A stretch of 64,000 bases of DNA from Streptomyces humicola. Lineage in GTDB: Bacteria > Actinomycetota > Actinomycetes > Streptomycetales > Streptomycetaceae. The notes under the pieces were generated by a model. That model was not told the origin of the DNA and searched no databases. It saw nothing but the letters and a program-made list of their open reading frames with translations. The first letter of the stretch is position 1; each line of letters opens with the position of its first letter. Location of the stretch: NCBI RefSeq assembly GCF_024436035.1, contig NZ_JANFNG010000019.1, forward strand, positions 1 through 64,000, given 5' to 3'. Positions 30,404 through 43,893 of this stretch are shown here, piece after piece. Both the position numbers and the translations under genes were made by a program.

Positions 30404-31114
30404 ATGCGCATCTCACCCAGCCGCACCCTGCGCCGGATCCCGGCGATCACCGCGGCCGCAGCCGCCACCGTCCTCCTCGTCGCCGGGCCCGCCTTCGCCC
30501 ACGTCGTCGTCGAGCCGTCCACCGCGCCCAAGGGCGGCGAGGCCACCATCGACTTCAAGGTGCCCAACGAGCAGGACAACGCCAACACCGTCAAGGTCGA
30601 GGTCTACTTCCCGACCGACCACCCCATCGCCCAGGTCTCCACCGAGCCCGTGCCCGGCTGGACCGCATCGGTGACCACCTACAAGCTGGCCAAGCCGATC
30701 ACCACCGACGACGGCCAGGTCACCAACGCGGTATCGAAGATCACCTGGACCGGCGGCAAGATCGCACCCGGCGAGTTCCAGCAGTTCCCGGTCTCCGTCG
30801 GCCCGCTGCCGACCGACACCGACAAGGTCGTCTTCAAGGCGCTGCAGACCTACGACAACAACCAGATCGTCCGCTGGATCGACACCCCGGCAGCACCCGG
30901 CGCACCCGACCCCGAGCACCCCGCCCCGACACTGACGCTCACCCCCGCGGACGCGACAAGCAGCACGGCGAGCGGTACGGCGCAGACCACGGCGGCCAAG
31001 GCCTCCGACGGCGACACCACCGCCCGCGTCCTCGCCGTCGTCGGCATCGTCCTGGGCGCCGCAGGCGTGGCCTACGGCGTGTTCGCCGGACGCCGCCGCT
31101 CGGGCAACGCCTGA
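30404..31114 (+). CDS. YcnI-like copper-binding protein (DUF1775)
   Basis: 236 residues. A signal peptide ends AGPAFA, leaving mature N-terminal His33 (HVVVEPS), the Cu-binding brace residue of YcnI proteins; the conserved Trp lies in SKITWTGGK. The DUF1775 domain covers about 33-175. A Thr/Ala-rich linker and a C-terminal helix VLAVVGIVLGAAGVAYGVFAG plus basic tail anchor it in the membrane. It is expected to bind Cu(II) outside the cell and serves with the Sco and PCuAC proteins downstream. Confidence 0.92.
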   Translation: MRISPSRTLRRIPAITAAAAATVLLVAGPAFAHVVVEPSTAPKGGEATIDFKVPNEQDNANTVKVEVYFPTDHPIAQVSTEPVPGWTASVTTYKLAKPITTDDGQVTNAVSKITWTGGKIAPGEFQQFPVSVGPLPTDTDKVVFKALQTYDNNQIVRWIDTPAAPGAPDPEHPAPTLTLTPADATSSTASGTAQTTAAKASDGDTTARVLAVVGIVLGAAGVAYGVFAGRRRSGNA

Positions 31115-31144: not shown

Positions 31145-31840
31145 ATGCGTACACACACTCGTACACCCTCCGCACCCCGTCGGGCACGACGCCTCGTCGC
31201 CGGCGCCGCGCTCGTCGCCGCGGCCGCCCTCACGCTCACCGCGTGCGGCTCGTCCTCCGGTGACAGCGGCAGCAGCGACCAGCCCGTCGCGTCGGTCTCG
31301 GGTGGCTCGTCCTCCGGCGCCGTGCCGCTCGACCCGCCGTTCGCCAAGCCGGCGGCGCAGCTCACCGACAACCACGGCAAGCCGTTCGACCTCGCCAAGG
31401 AGACCGCGGGCAGGCCGACGCTCATCTACTTCGGCTACACCCACTGCCCCGACGTCTGCCCGACCACGATGGCCGACATCGGCAATGCGGCCCGCACCCT
31501 GCCCGCCACCGAACAGCGGCAACTGCAGGTCATCTTCATCACCACCGACCCGCAGCGCGACACCCCGCAGCGCCTGACCCAGTGGCTCGGCGCCATGGAC
31601 CCGTCCTTCATCGGCCTGACCGGCGACTTCGCCACCATCCAGGCGGCGGCCCGCAGCGTCGGTGTGGACGTCGAGAAGCCGGTGAAGGAGAAGGACGGCA
31701 GCATCAGCGTCACCCACGGCTCGGAGGTGCTCGCCTTCTCCCCCAAGGACAACAAGGCGCACTTCCTCTACACCGCGGGCGTGTCGGTGAGCCAGTACAC
31801 GACGGGGATCCGCAAGCTCGTCAAGGGGGAGACGCCGTGA
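31145..31840 (+). CDS. sco: Sco1/SenC copper chaperone lipoprotein
   Basis: 231 residues. Lipobox LTAC with Cys34 as lipid attachment site. The thioredoxin-like domain has the Cu(I)-binding CPDVC (Cys101, Cys105) and the third ligand His191 (VTHGSEV). Sco proteins deliver copper to the CuA site of cytochrome c oxidase and, in Streptomyces, support copper-dependent development. Its stop overlaps the GTG of the PCuAC gene, confirming operon structure. Confidence 0.94.
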   Translation: MRTHTRTPSAPRRARRLVAGAALVAAAALTLTACGSSSGDSGSSDQPVASVSGGSSSGAVPLDPPFAKPAAQLTDNHGKPFDLAKETAGRPTLIYFGYTHCPDVCPTTMADIGNAARTLPATEQRQLQVIFITTDPQRDTPQRLTQWLGAMDPSFIGLTGDFATIQAAARSVGVDVEKPVKEKDGSISVTHGSEVLAFSPKDNKAHFLYTAGVSVSQYTTGIRKLVKGETP

Positions 31841-32325
31841 CCGCCGCGCGACGCCTCATACCGACCGGCCCCGTACTGCTCGTGGGCGGACTGCTGGTGG
31901 GCGCGGCTGCGCTCACCGGCTGCTCGCACGCCTCGCAAGCTCCGGCAGGCAAGCCCGAGCTGCGGGTGAGCGGCGCCTACGTGCCGCAGCCGCCGATGTC
32001 CGACATGGCGGCCGGCTATTTCACCGTCACCAACACCGGTGGGGCATCCGACGAACTGACCGGCGTCACCAGCGACCTCGCCTCGGACGTGTCCATGAAC
32101 ACGACCACACCGGCGGGCCAGATGCAGGACGCCGCGTCGCTGCCCATACCGGCCGACGGCAAGCTCGTCCTGAGCACCGGCGGCAACCATCTGATGCTGA
32201 TGGGGCTGCGCAAGAAGCCAACGGTGGGAGAGAAGGTCTCATTCGTGCTGCACTTCGCGAAGTCGTCCCCGATCGCCGTCCAGGTGCCGGTCGAACCCGC
32301 GACGTACCAACCGCCCAAGGACTGA
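31837..32325 (+). CDS. PCuAC-family copper chaperone lipoprotein
   Basis: 162 residues. Lipobox ALTGC with Cys29. The copper site normally reads (M/L)H...M...HxM; here the second part is intact (GGNHLMLMGL), but the first His is Asn (VSMNTTTPAGQM). The GTG start overlaps the sco stop (GTGA). PCuAC proteins relay Cu(I) to Sco or directly to CuA. The missing His may weaken or change copper coordination. Confidence 0.9.
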   Translation: MTAARRLIPTGPVLLVGGLLVGAAALTGCSHASQAPAGKPELRVSGAYVPQPPMSDMAAGYFTVTNTGGASDELTGVTSDLASDVSMNTTTPAGQMQDAASLPIPADGKLVLSTGGNHLMLMGLRKKPTVGEKVSFVLHFAKSSPIAVQVPVEPATYQPPKD

Positions 32326-32331
32326 TTCGCC

Positions 32332-34206
32332 ATGACGAGCGCCAAGCGGATCGCAGTCCTGCTGGGCGCGCTGGCCGCCGTGCTGCTCGGCACGGCGGCC
32401 CCAGCGTCCGCGCACGCCGCGCTGCTCACCACCGATCCCGGACAGGGTTCGGTGGTCAAGGTCGCGCCCACTCAGGTGCTGCTCACCTTCTCCGAGGGGG
32501 TGCTGCTCTCCGACGACTCGCTGCGGGTCCTCGCCCCCTCCGGCAAGGACGTCGAACGGGGCACGGCGCACCACGCGGGCGACAACCAGAACACGGCGAC
32601 GGTGGCGCTGCGTCCGGGCCTGGGCAACGGCACCTACACCGTGGCGTGGAAGGCCGTCTCGGCGGACACCCACCCGGTCGCGGGCGCATGGACGTTCTCT
32701 GTCGGCGCACCGTCGGCGACCTCGGTGAACGCCGGGTCCCTGCCCGGACAGCAGCCGGGCGGCGGCATCGTCGGCACCCTGTACTCCATCGGCCGCGCCT
32801 TCTCCTACGGCGGCTTCGCGCTGCTCGTCGGCGGCTGCGCGTTCCTCGGCGTCTGCTGGCCGCGCGGGGCGCGCCTGCGCGTCATGCAGAAGGTCGCCGT
32901 CAGCGGCTGGGTGACGCTGGCAGCCTCGACGATCGCGTTGCTGCTGCTGCGCGGCCCGTACGTCAACGGGACCGGGCTCGGCGGGATCGCCGACCTGGGC
33001 CAGTTGCAGGCCGCGGTGGAGACCAAGGAGGGTGCGGCGCTGATCTCCCGGCTGCTGCTGCTCGCCGCGGCCGCGCTCTTCCTCTCCGTGCTCTTCGGTG
33101 CGTACACCCGGCGCGAGGATCCGGAGGAGCGGCGTGATCTCGCCCTCGGCCTCTCCATAGGGGGCGCGGTGATCGCGACCGGGATCGCAGCGACATGGGC
33201 GATGTCCGAGCACGCCTCGGTCGGCATCCAACCGGCCGTCGCCATGCCCGTCGACGTGCTGCATCTGCTGGCGATGGCGGTGTGGCTGGGCGGGCTCGTG
33301 GCGCTGGTCACCGCGCTCTACCGGACGACGGCCATCGAACGCGCGGCGGTACGGCGCTTTTCGCGCATCGCCTTCGGATGCGTCTGTGCGCTGGTCGGTT
33401 CCGGGATCTACCAGGCGTGGCGTCAAGTCGGCTCCTGGCACGCGCTGTTCACGACGGAGTACGGGCAGCTGCTGATCGTCAAGATCGGCCTGGTGGTACT
33501 GATGCTCGGCACGGCGGCGATCTCGCGCCGCTGGACCGCGCGGCTCGCGGACGCACAGCACGGCGCCCCGGCCGAGCCCGAGACCGAACCCCAGCCGGTG
33601 CATGCCGAGGCCACGACGGCCGAGGACCCCGAGCGCGCCGCGCAACTCGCCCGCCAACGCGCGGCATTGGCCGCGGGGCGTGCGAAGAAGCTACGCGACG
33701 CCGACCCGGCGCGCGGCGGATTGCGCCGCTCGGTGCTCACCGAGGCCGCAATCGCCGTGCTCGTCCTCGCCGTCGCGACCGTGCTCAGCGGCAGCGAACC
33801 GGGCCGTGCCGTCGAGGAGTCGATCGCCGCGTCCGGCGGCGCGGCCGGCGGCGCGGCCGGCGGCCCAGTGCTGCTCTCCATTCCGTACGACACCGGCGGG
33901 CCGGACGGCAAGGGAACGGCCGGCGTCCACCTCGACCCCGCGCGCACCGGGAACAACGTGCTGCACCTGAGCGTCACCGACGCTTCGGGCAAGCCCGTCG
34001 ACGTCCCCGAGGTGGATGTCGCGCTCACTCTCCCGGCGAAGAACCTCGGGCCGATCCCGGTCACGCTCCGGCACGTCGCCACCGGCGAGTGGGCCGCGAC
34101 GAGCCTGCAGCTTCCGATGCCGGGCCAGTGGCAGCTGAGCGTCACGGTGCGTACGGACGACATTGACGAGACCACCGTCGCCAGGAACGTGGCCGTCGGC
34201 GGATGA
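32332..34206 (+). CDS. CopC-CopD fusion with C-terminal YtkA/FixH-like domain
   Basis: 624 residues. The signal peptide ends ASA before His28 (HAALLTTDPGQGS), the CopC Cu site; the second CopC His is in DTHPVAGAWTF. Eight or so membrane helices (about 150-390) form the CopD domain, including MPVDVLHLLAMAVWLGGLVAL. A basic Ala-rich cytoplasmic linker (about 410-470) leads to another helix and an external beta domain (about 505-624). It probably imports or traffics copper. Its stop overlaps the start of the dead DyP gene by four bases. Confidence 0.9.
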   Translation: MTSAKRIAVLLGALAAVLLGTAAPASAHAALLTTDPGQGSVVKVAPTQVLLTFSEGVLLSDDSLRVLAPSGKDVERGTAHHAGDNQNTATVALRPGLGNGTYTVAWKAVSADTHPVAGAWTFSVGAPSATSVNAGSLPGQQPGGGIVGTLYSIGRAFSYGGFALLVGGCAFLGVCWPRGARLRVMQKVAVSGWVTLAASTIALLLLRGPYVNGTGLGGIADLGQLQAAVETKEGAALISRLLLLAAAALFLSVLFGAYTRREDPEERRDLALGLSIGGAVIATGIAATWAMSEHASVGIQPAVAMPVDVLHLLAMAVWLGGLVALVTALYRTTAIERAAVRRFSRIAFGCVCALVGSGIYQAWRQVGSWHALFTTEYGQLLIVKIGLVVLMLGTAAISRRWTARLADAQHGAPAEPETEPQPVHAEATTAEDPERAAQLARQRAALAAGRAKKLRDADPARGGLRRSVLTEAAIAVLVLAVATVLSGSEPGRAVEESIAASGGAAGGAAGGPVLLSIPYDTGGPDGKGTAGVHLDPARTGNNVLHLSVTDASGKPVDVPEVDVALTLPAKNLGPIPVTLRHVATGEWAATSLQLPMPGQWQLSVTVRTDDIDETTVARNVAVGG

Positions 34207-34730
34207 GGAAAGATCACATACCGGAGAACATCTCGGAGAAGCCGAAGAACATATCCCGCCGACGGCTGTTGGGCACGGCGGGCCCGCCGGGGCGGCCGGG
34301 CCGGCGTCGGGCGGGGCAGCCGGCGCGTCCGCCTACGCCGCCGCGCACAACGGCGGGCCCGCGCTGACCACGGTCGGCAGCACCGCCGTCCCCTTCCACG
34401 GCACCCACCAGGCGGGGATCACCACCCCGGCGCAGGCCCGCGGTCACCTCGTCGCCTTCGACCTCGCGCCCGGGCGCGGGCCGCAAGGGCGCTGCCGCGC
34501 TGCTGCGCCGCTGGTCTGCGGCGGCCGGGGCGATGACGGCAGGCCGCATGCCGGACGGCGACGACCAGATCGCGCTGGACGCGAGCCCCTCCTCGCTCAC
34601 GGTGGCCTTCGGGCTCGACGGCGGTGACGGGCTGACGCGCTTCACCCGGCACGAGTCGAGCGCGCTGTTCGCGGTACCGGGCGGGGCCCAGCCGGGCGAG
34701 TACGTGAGCCAGCGGCTGCTGGAGTCATGA
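34203..34730 (+). pseudogene. dtpA: DyP-type heme peroxidase (dtpA-like), degenerate
   Basis: Starts well: an ATG overlapping the CopCD stop and a Tat-type signal (ISRRRLLGTAG). Then the frame shifts. DyP sequence resumes in another frame as VPFHGTHQAGITTPAQ and LVAFDLAPG, shifts again to DDQIALDASPSSLTVAFGLDGGDG, and jumps straight to the C-terminal RHESSALFAVPGGAQPGEYVSQRLLES. The central ~200 residues, including the GxxDG Asp and the heme-ligand His, are missing. At least two frameshifts and one deletion make this non-functional. An intact paralogue, efeB, lies at 42658. Confidence 0.85.
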
Positions 34731-34832
34731 TCCCCGTGAGCGACGCACGCGAGCAGGGGAAGGGGGGCGGAGAACCGGAGAAAGGGACGCAGCCGACGAT
34801 CGGCACGTGGCCGCATTAGGGTGAAGGTCATG

Positions 34833-35765
34833 ATGTCCTCGTCAGCAGCCCGCTTCACGTACCTCGGCCCCGAAGGGACCTTCACCGAGGCAGCGCTGCG
34901 CACGCTGCCGGAAGCGGCGACGCGTGAGCTGGTGCCGATGGTGTCGGTGCCGGCCGCGCTGGACGCGGTACGGAGCGAGGAGGCCGCGGCGGCGCTGGTG
35001 CCGATCGAGAACTCGGTGGAGGGCGGGGTCACCGCGACCCTCGACGAACTCGCCACCGGCGAGCCACTGATGATCTTCCGCGAGGTGCTGCTGCCGATCG
35101 CTTTCGCGCTGCTCGTCCGGCCGGGCACTGAGCTTGCGGGCATCAAGACGGTCACCGGGCACCCGGTGGCGCAGCCGCAGGTACGCAACTGGCTTGCGGC
35201 GAATCTCCCCGATGCGGTGTGGGAGTCGGCGGCCTCGAACGCCGACGGGGCACGGTTGGTGCAGGAGGGGCGGTTCGACGCGGCGTTCGCCGGTGAGTTC
35301 GCGGCGGCGCGGTACGGCTTGGAGCCGCTGGTCACCGGGATCCATGACGCCGAGAGCGCACACACGCGGTTCGTGCTCGTGGGCCGCCCGGGGCGGCCGC
35401 CGGCGCGGACGGGGGCGGACAAGACCTCGGCGGTCTTCTGGCTGCGTGACGACCATCCGGGCGCGCTGCTCGAACTGCTGCAGGAGTTCGCGGTGCGCGG
35501 GGTGAACCTGGTGCGGATCGAGTCGCGGCCGACGGGCGAGGGCATCGGGCGGTACTGCTTCTCGGTGGACTGCGAGGGGCACATCGGCGACCGCCGGGTG
35601 GGCGAGGCGCTGATGGGGCTGAAGCGGATCTGCCCGCAGGTGCGTTTCCTGGGGTCGTATCCGCGGGCGGACGAGGTCGAGCCGCGGTTGCGGCCGGGCA
35701 CGACGGACGAGGAGTTCACCGAGGCCGCGGACTGGCTCTCCCGCGCGCTCGACGGGCGGTGCTGA
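34833..35765 (+). CDS. pheA: Prephenate dehydratase
   Basis: 310 residues. Catalytic domain (about 5-190) with FTYLGPEGTFTEAAL, VPIENSVEGGVTATLD and HTRFVLVG; C-terminal ACT domain (about 205-285) with HPGALLELLQEFAVRGVNLVRIESRP, the Phe-binding regulatory module. It converts prephenate to phenylpyruvate in phenylalanine synthesis. A TAGGGT -10-like element (34817-34822) seven bases before the Met-Met pair suggests a leaderless or near-leaderless transcript; ATG 34830 or 34833 is used rather than the GTG at 34821. Confidence 0.94.
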   Translation: MSSSAARFTYLGPEGTFTEAALRTLPEAATRELVPMVSVPAALDAVRSEEAAAALVPIENSVEGGVTATLDELATGEPLMIFREVLLPIAFALLVRPGTELAGIKTVTGHPVAQPQVRNWLAANLPDAVWESAASNADGARLVQEGRFDAAFAGEFAAARYGLEPLVTGIHDAESAHTRFVLVGRPGRPPARTGADKTSAVFWLRDDHPGALLELLQEFAVRGVNLVRIESRPTGEGIGRYCFSVDCEGHIGDRRVGEALMGLKRICPQVRFLGSYPRADEVEPRLRPGTTDEEFTEAADWLSRALDGRC

Positions 35766-40520: not shown

Positions 40521-42614
40521 GTGACATGGGCTGAAGCTGTACCGAATCTTCTCATCGGCTTGCGCGAGGGGCTCGAAGCCGGGCTGGTCGTCAGCATCCT
40601 GCTGGCCGCGCTGCGCAAGACCACGGTGGGTGAACAGCGGGTGTCGACGGCGCCGGTCTGGCTGGGCGTGCTCGGCGCGGTGATGGTCGCAGGCAGCTTC
40701 GCCGCGGTGCTGACGTTCTCGACCAGCGTGCTGTCCAGCGCTGCTCAGGAGGCGGTCGGGGGGCTGCTGAGCGTGCTCGCGGTCGGCCTGGTCACCGCGA
40801 TGGTGTTCTGGATGCGGCGTACTGCGTCCGGGCTGGCGGCGCAGCTGCGCGGCGAGGTCGAGCGGGCCGTATCGGTCGGAACGGGCGCGCTGGCCGTCAC
40901 CGCGTTCCTCGCCGTCGGCCGGGAGGGCCTGGAGACGACACTGTTCCTGTGGACGGCCGCGAAGGCCTCGGGCTCGACGCTCGCGCCGCTGGTCGGTGCG
41001 GGGCTGGGGCTGGCCGCGGCGACCGTGCTGTGCTGGCTGCTGTACCGGCAGGCCCTGCGGCTGAATCTCGGGGTGTTCTTCAGCCGGACTGCGCTGGCGC
41101 TGGTGGTGATCGCCGCGGGGGTGCTCGCGTATGGGCTCGGCGATCTGCAGGACGCGGAATGGCTGCCCGGCTACCACTGGGTCGCGTTCGATCTGACCGC
41201 GCACATCGACCCCAACTCCTGGTGGGTCTCCATCATGACCGGTGTCACAGAGCTGGCACCCAGGTTGACGATGCTTCAGATCGTGGCGTGGGCCGTGTAC
41301 TTGGCGGTCGTGGTCCCCGCGTTCGTCCGGGCCGGGCGCCCCGCCACCGCCCAGGCTCCTGACGCCCAGGCTCCCGCCACCTCCGAGTCACCGGCAGCGG
41401 ACGAGGAGCGCGGGCCGGGCCGGTGGGAGCGGCTGCTCGGCCGGCGCCCGTGGGCGGTGGCCGCCGTCCTGGTCGTGGTTCCCGCACTGGCGGCGGCGAC
41501 CACGATATCGATGCTGCCGTCCGGGGCCGCATCGTCGACGCAGACGGTGACGGTGACGCAGACCACCTGCGCCAAGGACTGGACCTCGGCACACGCGGGC
41601 ACGCAGACCTTCGAGGTGGAGAACAAGTCCGGCAAGGCCGGCGAGATCAATCTGGTCAATTCCGCCGGTGCCGTGGTGGGCGAGATCGAGACGATCGGCC
41701 CGGCGACCACCGCCGAGATGACCGCCACCTTGGGCAACGGCTCCTACACCATCAAGTGCCTGATGTCCGGGCAGCCGGAGCTCTCCTCGGCCACCGTGCA
41801 GGTCAGCGGTGCAGGCTCGCAGCAGGCAGCCCCGGCCGCCGTGGCACCGGTGACCGTGCAGCAGCTCACCGGCCCGAACAACGCCTACCAGGCCTATGCG
41901 GCCGGCGGCCTGACGCAGTTGTCCGGTGCGGTGGCCGCGATCGGCGCGGACCTGCGGCGGTCAGATCTCGCTGCGGCGAAGAACGACTGGCTCACCGCAC
42001 AGCTGGACTGGGAACGGGTCGGAGCCTCCTACGACAGCTTCGGCGACGCGGGCACCGCGGTCGACGGCCTGCCGGACGGTCTGCCCGGCGGCGTGCAGGA
42101 CAAGGACTTCACCGGCCTGCACCGCCTCGAATACGGGCTGTGGCACGGGCAGAGCGCGGCCCAGCTGATGCCCGTGGTGGACAAGCTCAGCACGGACATC
42201 GCCACCGTCCGGAAGAACCTGGGCAGCGACGACCTCGCGGGCGACCCCACCAACCTGCCGATCCGCGCGCACGAGATTCTCGAGGACGCGATGCGCGACC
42301 ACCTCTCGGGAATCGACGACCAGGGGGCGGGCGCGGCCTACCCGGAGACCTACGCCGACCTGCAGGTCACCCGCACCGTGCTCGGCGAGCTGTCCGGTCT
42401 GCTCACCACCCGGGCCCCGGCACTGATCCCCACGGCCAACCAGCAGATGGACACCCTGCAGTCCGCGCTGCTCGCCACCCGGACCGGCGGGCAGTGGCGC
42501 TCCCCGGAGCAGACCCCGCTGGCGGCGCGCCAGTCCGTCAACGCGGCGGTCGGCGCCCTGCTGGAGACCCTCGACCAGGTGCCCGACCTGCTCGAAGTAC
42601 CGCCCACGCACTGA
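40521..42614 (+). CDS. efeUO: EfeU-EfeO fusion: ferrous/ferric iron permease joined to periplasmic EfeO
   Basis: 697 residues. Residues 1-260 are an FTR1/EfeU permease with seven membrane helices and both iron-binding REGLE motifs (LREGLEAGL and VGREGLETTLF). An additional helix (WAVAAVLVVVPALAAATTI, about 315-333) carries the chain outside. Then comes a cupredoxin-like EfeO domain (about 345-425, Cys in TTCAKDW) and an M75/imelysin domain (about 445-697) with LHRLEYGLW and the metal-binding HEILEDAMRDHLSG. EfeU and EfeO are usually separate proteins. No ribosome binding site is present, so the transcript is probably leaderless. Iron-regulated through the upstream box. Confidence 0.92.
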   Translation: MTWAEAVPNLLIGLREGLEAGLVVSILLAALRKTTVGEQRVSTAPVWLGVLGAVMVAGSFAAVLTFSTSVLSSAAQEAVGGLLSVLAVGLVTAMVFWMRRTASGLAAQLRGEVERAVSVGTGALAVTAFLAVGREGLETTLFLWTAAKASGSTLAPLVGAGLGLAAATVLCWLLYRQALRLNLGVFFSRTALALVVIAAGVLAYGLGDLQDAEWLPGYHWVAFDLTAHIDPNSWWVSIMTGVTELAPRLTMLQIVAWAVYLAVVVPAFVRAGRPATAQAPDAQAPATSESPAADEERGPGRWERLLGRRPWAVAAVLVVVPALAAATTISMLPSGAASSTQTVTVTQTTCAKDWTSAHAGTQTFEVENKSGKAGEINLVNSAGAVVGEIETIGPATTAEMTATLGNGSYTIKCLMSGQPELSSATVQVSGAGSQQAAPAAVAPVTVQQLTGPNNAYQAYAAGGLTQLSGAVAAIGADLRRSDLAAAKNDWLTAQLDWERVGASYDSFGDAGTAVDGLPDGLPGGVQDKDFTGLHRLEYGLWHGQSAAQLMPVVDKLSTDIATVRKNLGSDDLAGDPTNLPIRAHEILEDAMRDHLSGIDDQGAGAAYPETYADLQVTRTVLGELSGLLTTRAPALIPTANQQMDTLQSALLATRTGGQWRSPEQTPLAARQSVNAAVGALLETLDQVPDLLEVPPTH

Positions 42615-42657: not shown

Positions 42658-43893
42658 ATGAATGTCAGCCGTCGCCGATTCCTCCACGGCACCGCCGCAG
42701 GCGCAGCCGGTACTGCTCTGACCGGCGGCATGCTCATCGGCGGGGCCCACGCGGACGCGCGCGCCGCCGCCGGCAGCGGCCCGGCGACCGCCGACTCCTA
42801 CCCGTTCCATGGCGCGCACCAGGCCGGGATCCTGACCCCCGGACCGGCGGACAAGCAGAGCGCCGCCTGCTACGCCGCATTCGACGTCACCGCCAAGAAC
42901 AAGGCGGAGCTGGCCGATCTGATGAAGACGCTGACCACGCGGGCCCGCTTCCTCACCGCGGGCGGCACGCCCGAGAACCTGGGGATCGGTCAGCCGCCGC
43001 CGGACAGCGACGTCCTCGGCCCGGTCATCCCCGCCGACGGGCTCACCATGACCCTGTCCGTGGGCTCCAGCCTCTTCGACGACCGCTTCGGCCTCGCCAC
43101 GCTGAAGCCGGCCAAGCTGACGCCGATGCGCATATTCCCCAACGACTCGCCGGACCCAGCCTGGATGCACGGCGACCTGCTGCTGCAGCTGTGCGCCAAT
43201 CACCCCGACACCATCCACCACACCATCCGCGACATCGCCAAGCACACCCGCGGTGCGATGCAGCTGCGCTGGAAGATCGACGGCTACAACTCCCCGCCCC
43301 GGCCATCGGGCACCGGCCGGAACCTGCTCGGTTTCAAGGACGGCACGGCGAATCCCACCGGCACCACCGCCTCCGACCTGATCTGGGTCGACGACCCCGC
43401 CGAGCCCGCCTGGGCCCGCGGCGGCTCGTACCAGGTGGTCCGGCTGATCCGGATGCTCGTCGAGTTCTGGGACCGCGTCTCCATCAACGAGCAGGAGAAC
43501 ATGTTCGGCCGCCGCCGCGACTCCGGAGCGCCGTTGGACGGCACCAACGAGTTCGACACCCCGAACTACGCCGCCGACCCCAAGGGCTCGGTCATCCCCC
43601 TCGACTCCCACATCCGCCTCGCCAACCCGAGGACGCCCACGACCGCGAACCAGAGGCTGCTGCGCCGCTCGTACAACTACGACCTCGGCGTCGACCAGAA
43701 CGGCGACCTGCAGGCCGGGCACATCTTCACCTGCTTCCAGCAGGACGTGCAGCGCCAGTTCGAGACCGTCCAGACCCGCCTGATCAACGAACCGCTGGTC
43801 GACTACGTCCAGCCCTTCGGCGGCGGCTACTTCTATGTCCTGCCGGGCGTCGCCGACACCCGCGACTGGTACGGCCGCGCCCTGCTCACCTGA
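42658..43893 (+). CDS. efeB: EfeB, Tat-exported DyP-type peroxidase
   Basis: 411 residues. Tat signal SRRRFLHGTAAGAAG at the N-terminus. DyP hallmarks: FHGAHQAGILTP, GFKDGTANP with catalytic Asp228, and proximal heme ligand His318 in DSHIRLANPR. The intact C-terminus reads GGGYFYVLPGV. EfeB oxidises ferrous iron or extracts iron from heme for the EfeUO system. It is 43 bases downstream of the fusion and so shares its iron-regulated promoter. Followed by a perfect terminator. Confidence 0.95.
   Translation: MNVSRRRFLHGTAAGAAGTALTGGMLIGGAHADARAAAGSGPATADSYPFHGAHQAGILTPGPADKQSAACYAAFDVTAKNKAELADLMKTLTTRARFLTAGGTPENLGIGQPPPDSDVLGPVIPADGLTMTLSVGSSLFDDRFGLATLKPAKLTPMRIFPNDSPDPAWMHGDLLLQLCANHPDTIHHTIRDIAKHTRGAMQLRWKIDGYNSPPRPSGTGRNLLGFKDGTANPTGTTASDLIWVDDPAEPAWARGGSYQVVRLIRMLVEFWDRVSINEQENMFGRRRDSGAPLDGTNEFDTPNYAADPKGSVIPLDSHIRLANPRTPTTANQRLLRRSYNYDLGVDQNGDLQAGHIFTCFQQDVQRQFETVQTRLINEPLVDYVQPFGGGYFYVLPGVADTRDWYGRALLT

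Follow-up and report, generated by a model that had tools for sequence, protein, structure and literature searches.

A dtpA pseudogene at the end of an otherwise intact copper operon in a genome that encodes a second DtpA

In Streptomyces lividans, dtpA (SLI_4211) is the last gene of an operon that also contains sco (SLI_4214), ecuc (SLI_4213) and a putative copper transporter gene (SLI_4212); maturation of GlxA requires DtpA in this species, and reduced oxidase activity is mentioned for the dtpA mutant (PMC4736821). We analysed a window comprising bases 1-64000 of contig C10 from the 7.07-Mb draft genome (78 contigs) of a soil actinobacterium, and found on its plus strand the order YcnI-like (DUF1775), Sco, PCuAC chaperone, CopC-CopD fusion, dtpA relic, pheA and serS. 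The order Sco, PCuAC (ECuC), CopC/CopD and DyP peroxidase with a Tat signal is that of the S. lividans sco-ecuc-SLI_4212-dtpA operon (PMC4736821), and the 3' neighbour is again pheA, as at most loci of this arrangement (type 1). The relic thus stands as the final gene of a sco-ecuc-copper transporter operon, in agreement with the first-pass annotation, which had placed this dtpA in the sco/ecuc copper operon. The window departs from S. lividans in that the last gene of the operon is a relic, the genome lacks GlxA, and a second DtpA is encoded in a different operon.

The other members of the operon, all on the plus strand, are intact. The YcnI-like protein (DUF1775; 30404..31114) matches Pfam PF07987 (E 7.6e-51) and aligns over its full length with the sister genome, the closest genome compared (G001, the MAG Streptomycetaceae bacterium CP_BM_RX_5, of the same genus). 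It is followed by the SCO1/SenC copper chaperone gene sco (31145..31840; PF02630, E 1.7e-33), the ecuc-like PCuAC copper chaperone gene (31837..32325; PF04314, E 7.8e-28), whose start at 31837 is inferred from a GTGA overlap with the sco stop, and the CopC-CopD fusion, an SLI_4212-like putative copper transporter (32332..34206; PF04234 and PF05425). Beyond the relic lies pheA (prephenate dehydratase; 34821..35765), a 3' neighbour whose conservation in type-1 dtpA operons is seen from synteny at most of the fetched loci. The intact state of the neighbouring chaperones, as originally claimed, is borne out by these Pfam matches together with full alignment and rates against the sister.

The segment 34203-34730 of the plus strand is a pseudogene of the A-type DyP peroxidase DtpA, real and recently formed. 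As reference we used the intact 428-codon dtpA of the sister (L045:9174-10460), which sits at the corresponding position, flanked by CopC/D and pheA; the sister is thus the close relative with an intact copy that the first-pass annotation had proposed to look for. The relic's ATG at 34203 overlaps the CopC/D stop and opens a frame reading ...ISRRRLLGTAG, in which the Tat motif ISRRRLL is present, yet the frame breaks within the h-region of the signal peptide through a single-base frameshift at 34275..34285 (near 34280). Read from the original start, translation ends at a premature TGA after 54 codons (34365..34367), and the peptide HNGGPALTTVGSTAVPFHGTHQAGITTPAQARGHLVAFDL is encoded in a different frame. 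The second single-base break, at 34463..34470 (near 34468), placed like the first by alignment to the sister gene, restores the original frame, which then gives GAGRKGAAALLRRWS...SLTVAFG; directly after this come LDGGDGLTRFTRHESSALFAVPGGAQPGEYVSQRLLES and the native stop at 34728-34730. The seam between the two peptides, at 34612..34613, is the junction at which about 762 bp (about 254 codons; sister codons 136-389) were deleted in frame with loss of the heme site, the missing codons including GQIDGT (from 229), the proximal-His segment DAHIRVAA (334-341) and RRxFSYHDG (352 on). The start, the twin-arginine motif and, at the 3' end, the final 38 codons survive; of the motifs that the C66 copy (below) shares with the DtpA proteins of S. 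coelicolor and S. lividans, the relic retains only the Tat motif.

Profile searches agree with this picture. The relic matches Dyp_perox_N only at E 0.24 over 21 profile positions and gives no Dyp_perox_C match, so complete DyP domains in one frame are not found, and its N-terminal part matches TIGR01412 at 1e-11. DNA identity to the sister is 81% over a contiguous 5' stretch that includes the N-terminal part of the relic and reaches 92.5% across the final 120 bp, which argues against a chance resemblance. Because both GxxDG and the proximal heme His lie within the deleted codons, the remaining bases yield no heme peroxidase in any reading. The alignment upholds the original coordinates and description, namely a Tat signal with N- and C-terminal DyP segments in different frames and the central heme region gone. 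The possibility that the central segment had moved within the window was rejected, since a search of the window for it matched only the 37%-identical EfeB.

The first-pass annotation had also concluded that the peroxidase is lost, and this holds for the resident locus but not for the genome. DtpA is absent from its resident locus only and is still encoded elsewhere; rather than having disappeared, the enzyme has probably changed its place in the genome. Seven Dyp_perox_C matches were found in the genome, two of which are DtpA-like genes outside the window, so that the proposed search for another DtpA returned an intact copy on contig C66 and a half-deleted one on contig C55. On the minus strand of C66 we observe sco, PCuAC, an intact DtpA gene and a ctaG-like gene; YcnI, CopC/D and pheA are missing there. 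The C66 protein is encoded in one open frame of 413 aa (L039:6051-7292, minus strand), has both DyP domains (PF04261, 8.6e-36; PF20628, 5.3e-45) and is 74% identical to the DtpA of the sister. Its closest solved structures are SCO3963 (4gt2) and S. lividans DtpA (5mjh, 6gzw, 5map), with which it aligns over residues 5-412, sharing the Tat motif, GQxDGT (here GQIDGT), the proximal-His segment and RRxFSYHDG. The copy on C55 (L040) has 90% DNA identity to C66 and belongs to a third copper operon; at L040:7261-8304 a deletion has fused the 5' end of sco with the latter half of dtpA, and what remains in an open frame is a DyP half that bears the heme motifs and lacks a signal. The remaining DyPs of the genome, including the EfeB of the window, are 33-38% identical to DtpA. 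A match on contig C4 (L044:6436-6618) was set aside as a B-type-like fragment and not DtpA, being a partial Dyp_perox_C in a 189-aa frame, and a search of plasmids returned only distant DyPs annotated as efeB.

We next consider how widely DtpA occurs. Full-length dtpA was present in all 24 relatives examined (17 genera), and across the family 293 of 298 genomes had a DtpA match at E <= 1e-100, so a broken resident dtpA is unusual within a near-universal gene. Four of the five genomes without a match (G060, G064, G120 and G198) belong to a single other genus, g14, and the fifth is of low quality, with dtpA frame-broken. At the g14 loci (L212-L215, L220, L221), Sco-PCuAC-CopC/D is followed directly by pheA and dtpA is cleanly gone, and the family-wide search detected no second DtpA in these four genomes. 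Since they kept Sco and PCuAC, the combination of intact chaperones and a lost peroxidase has precedent.

Sequence comparison suggests that the loss in the window is recent relative to the species split. The readable remnant, taken without its last 38 codons, which were compared by eye from the alignment, has dS 0.34 and dN 0.14 against the sister (ratio about 0.41), and the corresponding ratios are about 0.28 for sco, 0.36 for PCuAC, 0.25 for CopC/D and 0.08 for pheA. As the remnant's rates are little above those of the flanking operon genes, most of its differences would predate the loss of function. Five amino-acid changes (three computed, two found by eye) fall on the window branch at positions common to all compared outgroups.

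The arrangement on C66 defines a second, rarer operon type. Retrieval with the C66 protein gave 80 named loci, of which 74 are type 1 (YcnI-Sco-PCuAC-CopC/D-dtpA), including two truncated at contig ends, and six resemble C66 (type 2). Three of the six, in S. malaysiense, Streptacidiphilus anmyonensis and Actinomadura darangshiensis, include ctaG and have the same gene set and order as C66, and the others, in three further Actinomadura, lack ctaG. S. malaysiense and S. anmyonensis carry both operon types with both dtpA genes intact, unlike the window genome. In the tree, the C66 and C55 copies are sisters (100/98) and belong to a starred clade that further includes the remaining type-2 copies, the relic and the resident dtpA of the genus. 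The best tree gives all type-2 copies a single origin, at weak support (66/81), and duplication within the genus as the origin of C66 is 11 log units worse than the best tree and not rejected (p-AU 0.19). The patchy occurrence of type 2 across two families favours horizontal sharing. The Actinomadura DtpA genes in the type-2 arrangement (L086, L089, L094, L096) nest inside a Streptomycetaceae clade, and on this placement horizontal transfer between families is likely.

We favour the explanation, to which we assign a probability of roughly 0.72, that the resident dtpA decayed recently and that its decay was tolerated because the intact type-2 DtpA of C66 is able to serve its role. Under this account the resident type-1 gene, last in YcnI-Sco-PCuAC-CopC/D-dtpA, became a pseudogene, the Tat-targeted C66 protein, heme-competent as judged by its motifs, would carry out the same extracytoplasmic copper-oxidation step, and this redundancy would be the cause of the decay. 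PCuAC and Sco of both operons would be retained for further clients, for example cytochrome c oxidase. The near-universality of dtpA favours the account, as loss of the resident gene would be unusual without a stand-in. Against it, the third copy, on C55, is itself decaying. The pairs of intact genes in S. malaysiense and S. anmyonensis indicate that redundancy does not force loss, and the four g14 genomes that loss can occur without a stand-in. A broader version, which we put forward tentatively and judge somewhat less than evenly probable, is that the main conserved job of DtpA in Streptomycetaceae is independent of GlxA, maybe copper loading of cytochrome oxidase, and that the type-2 operon is a horizontally shared module that in this genome displaced the resident dtpA. 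The pairing of dtpA with ctaG in type 2 would point to such copper loading. The relic alone is a case of ordinary gene decay; the strain is nevertheless a natural one in which, as far as gene content goes, a paralog from another operon has taken the place of the resident DtpA.

An alternative that we regard as unlikely is that loss of GlxA in this lineage made DtpA dispensable and let it decay, with the second DtpA being incidental. The dependence of GlxA maturation on DtpA in S. lividans (PMC4736821) lends it some plausibility, as does the proposed search for GlxA, which yielded no match to a full-length GlxA query at E <= 1e-3 in either the window genome or the sister. However, the sister lacks GlxA too and its dtpA is intact, and the window genome itself retains the C66 DtpA. 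Within a set of 25 genomes, a further 12 gave no close GlxA match, and each of these 12 keeps an intact dtpA. Family-wide, the GlxA C-terminal domain (PF09118) occurs in 219 of 298 genomes, and DtpA is kept in 76 of the 79 without it, indicating that absence of GlxA is no sufficient cause of dtpA loss and that some other, widely required function of DtpA must exist. Loss of GlxA may be a contributing factor in the decay. This family-wide distribution of DtpA without GlxA is a more useful result than the relic: with DtpA almost universal and GlxA not, a DtpA role beyond GlxA becomes testable, and the window genome and the sister, both of which lack GlxA, offer themselves as natural test strains. 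On contig C20 we observe a broken galactose-oxidase-like gene (L046:7700-8540), with a GO-like_E_set domain in a 134-aa frame, the genome's single PF09118 match, and a kelch piece in another frame. We rejected it as a GlxA relic, and with it a coupled loss of GlxA and DtpA, as four GlxA proteins used as tblastn queries aligned only over short pieces, at 31-36%, and the search with full-length GlxA found no match.

It is very improbable that the breaks are a sequencing or assembly artefact and that dtpA is intact in the organism. The assembly is a draft, and the two single-base breaks both lie in G+C runs, compensate each other and could be sequencing errors. Even with both removed, however, the frame encodes a protein without a heme site. 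Sequencing errors of this kind do not account for the deletion, which is exactly in frame with the flanking codons, and there is no repeat that would collapse. The C66 and C55 paralogs, at only about 80% DNA identity, are too distant for a chimera, and the surrounding Sco, PCuAC, CopC/D and pheA genes are free of frame errors. That the relic is expressed as a short secreted protein with a new role is extremely improbable, for although its segments still have codon structure and the two breaks compensate, the frame break and stop in the signal-peptide region preclude a secreted product from the original start, and the five family-conserved residues are changed on the window branch.

The window also encodes EfeB, a deferrochelatase/peroxidase of the efeUOB iron operon (42658-43893). 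Like DtpA it is a Tat substrate of the DyP superfamily, but it is only about 35-37% identical to DtpA and adjoins FTR1/imelysin and not Sco/PCuAC, and by sequence it is no substitute. In both species of the genus efeU (FTR1 permease) and efeO (cupredoxin and imelysin) are fused into a protein of about 700 aa, followed by efeB (window 40563-42614; L045:15427-17673, minus strand). The efeUO-efeB cassette lies between metG and aspS in both, in opposite orientation (window 40.4-43.9 kb versus L045:14126-17673), reflecting either an inversion or independent acquisition. EfeB identity between the two species is only 62%, whereas pheA and metG are far more alike.
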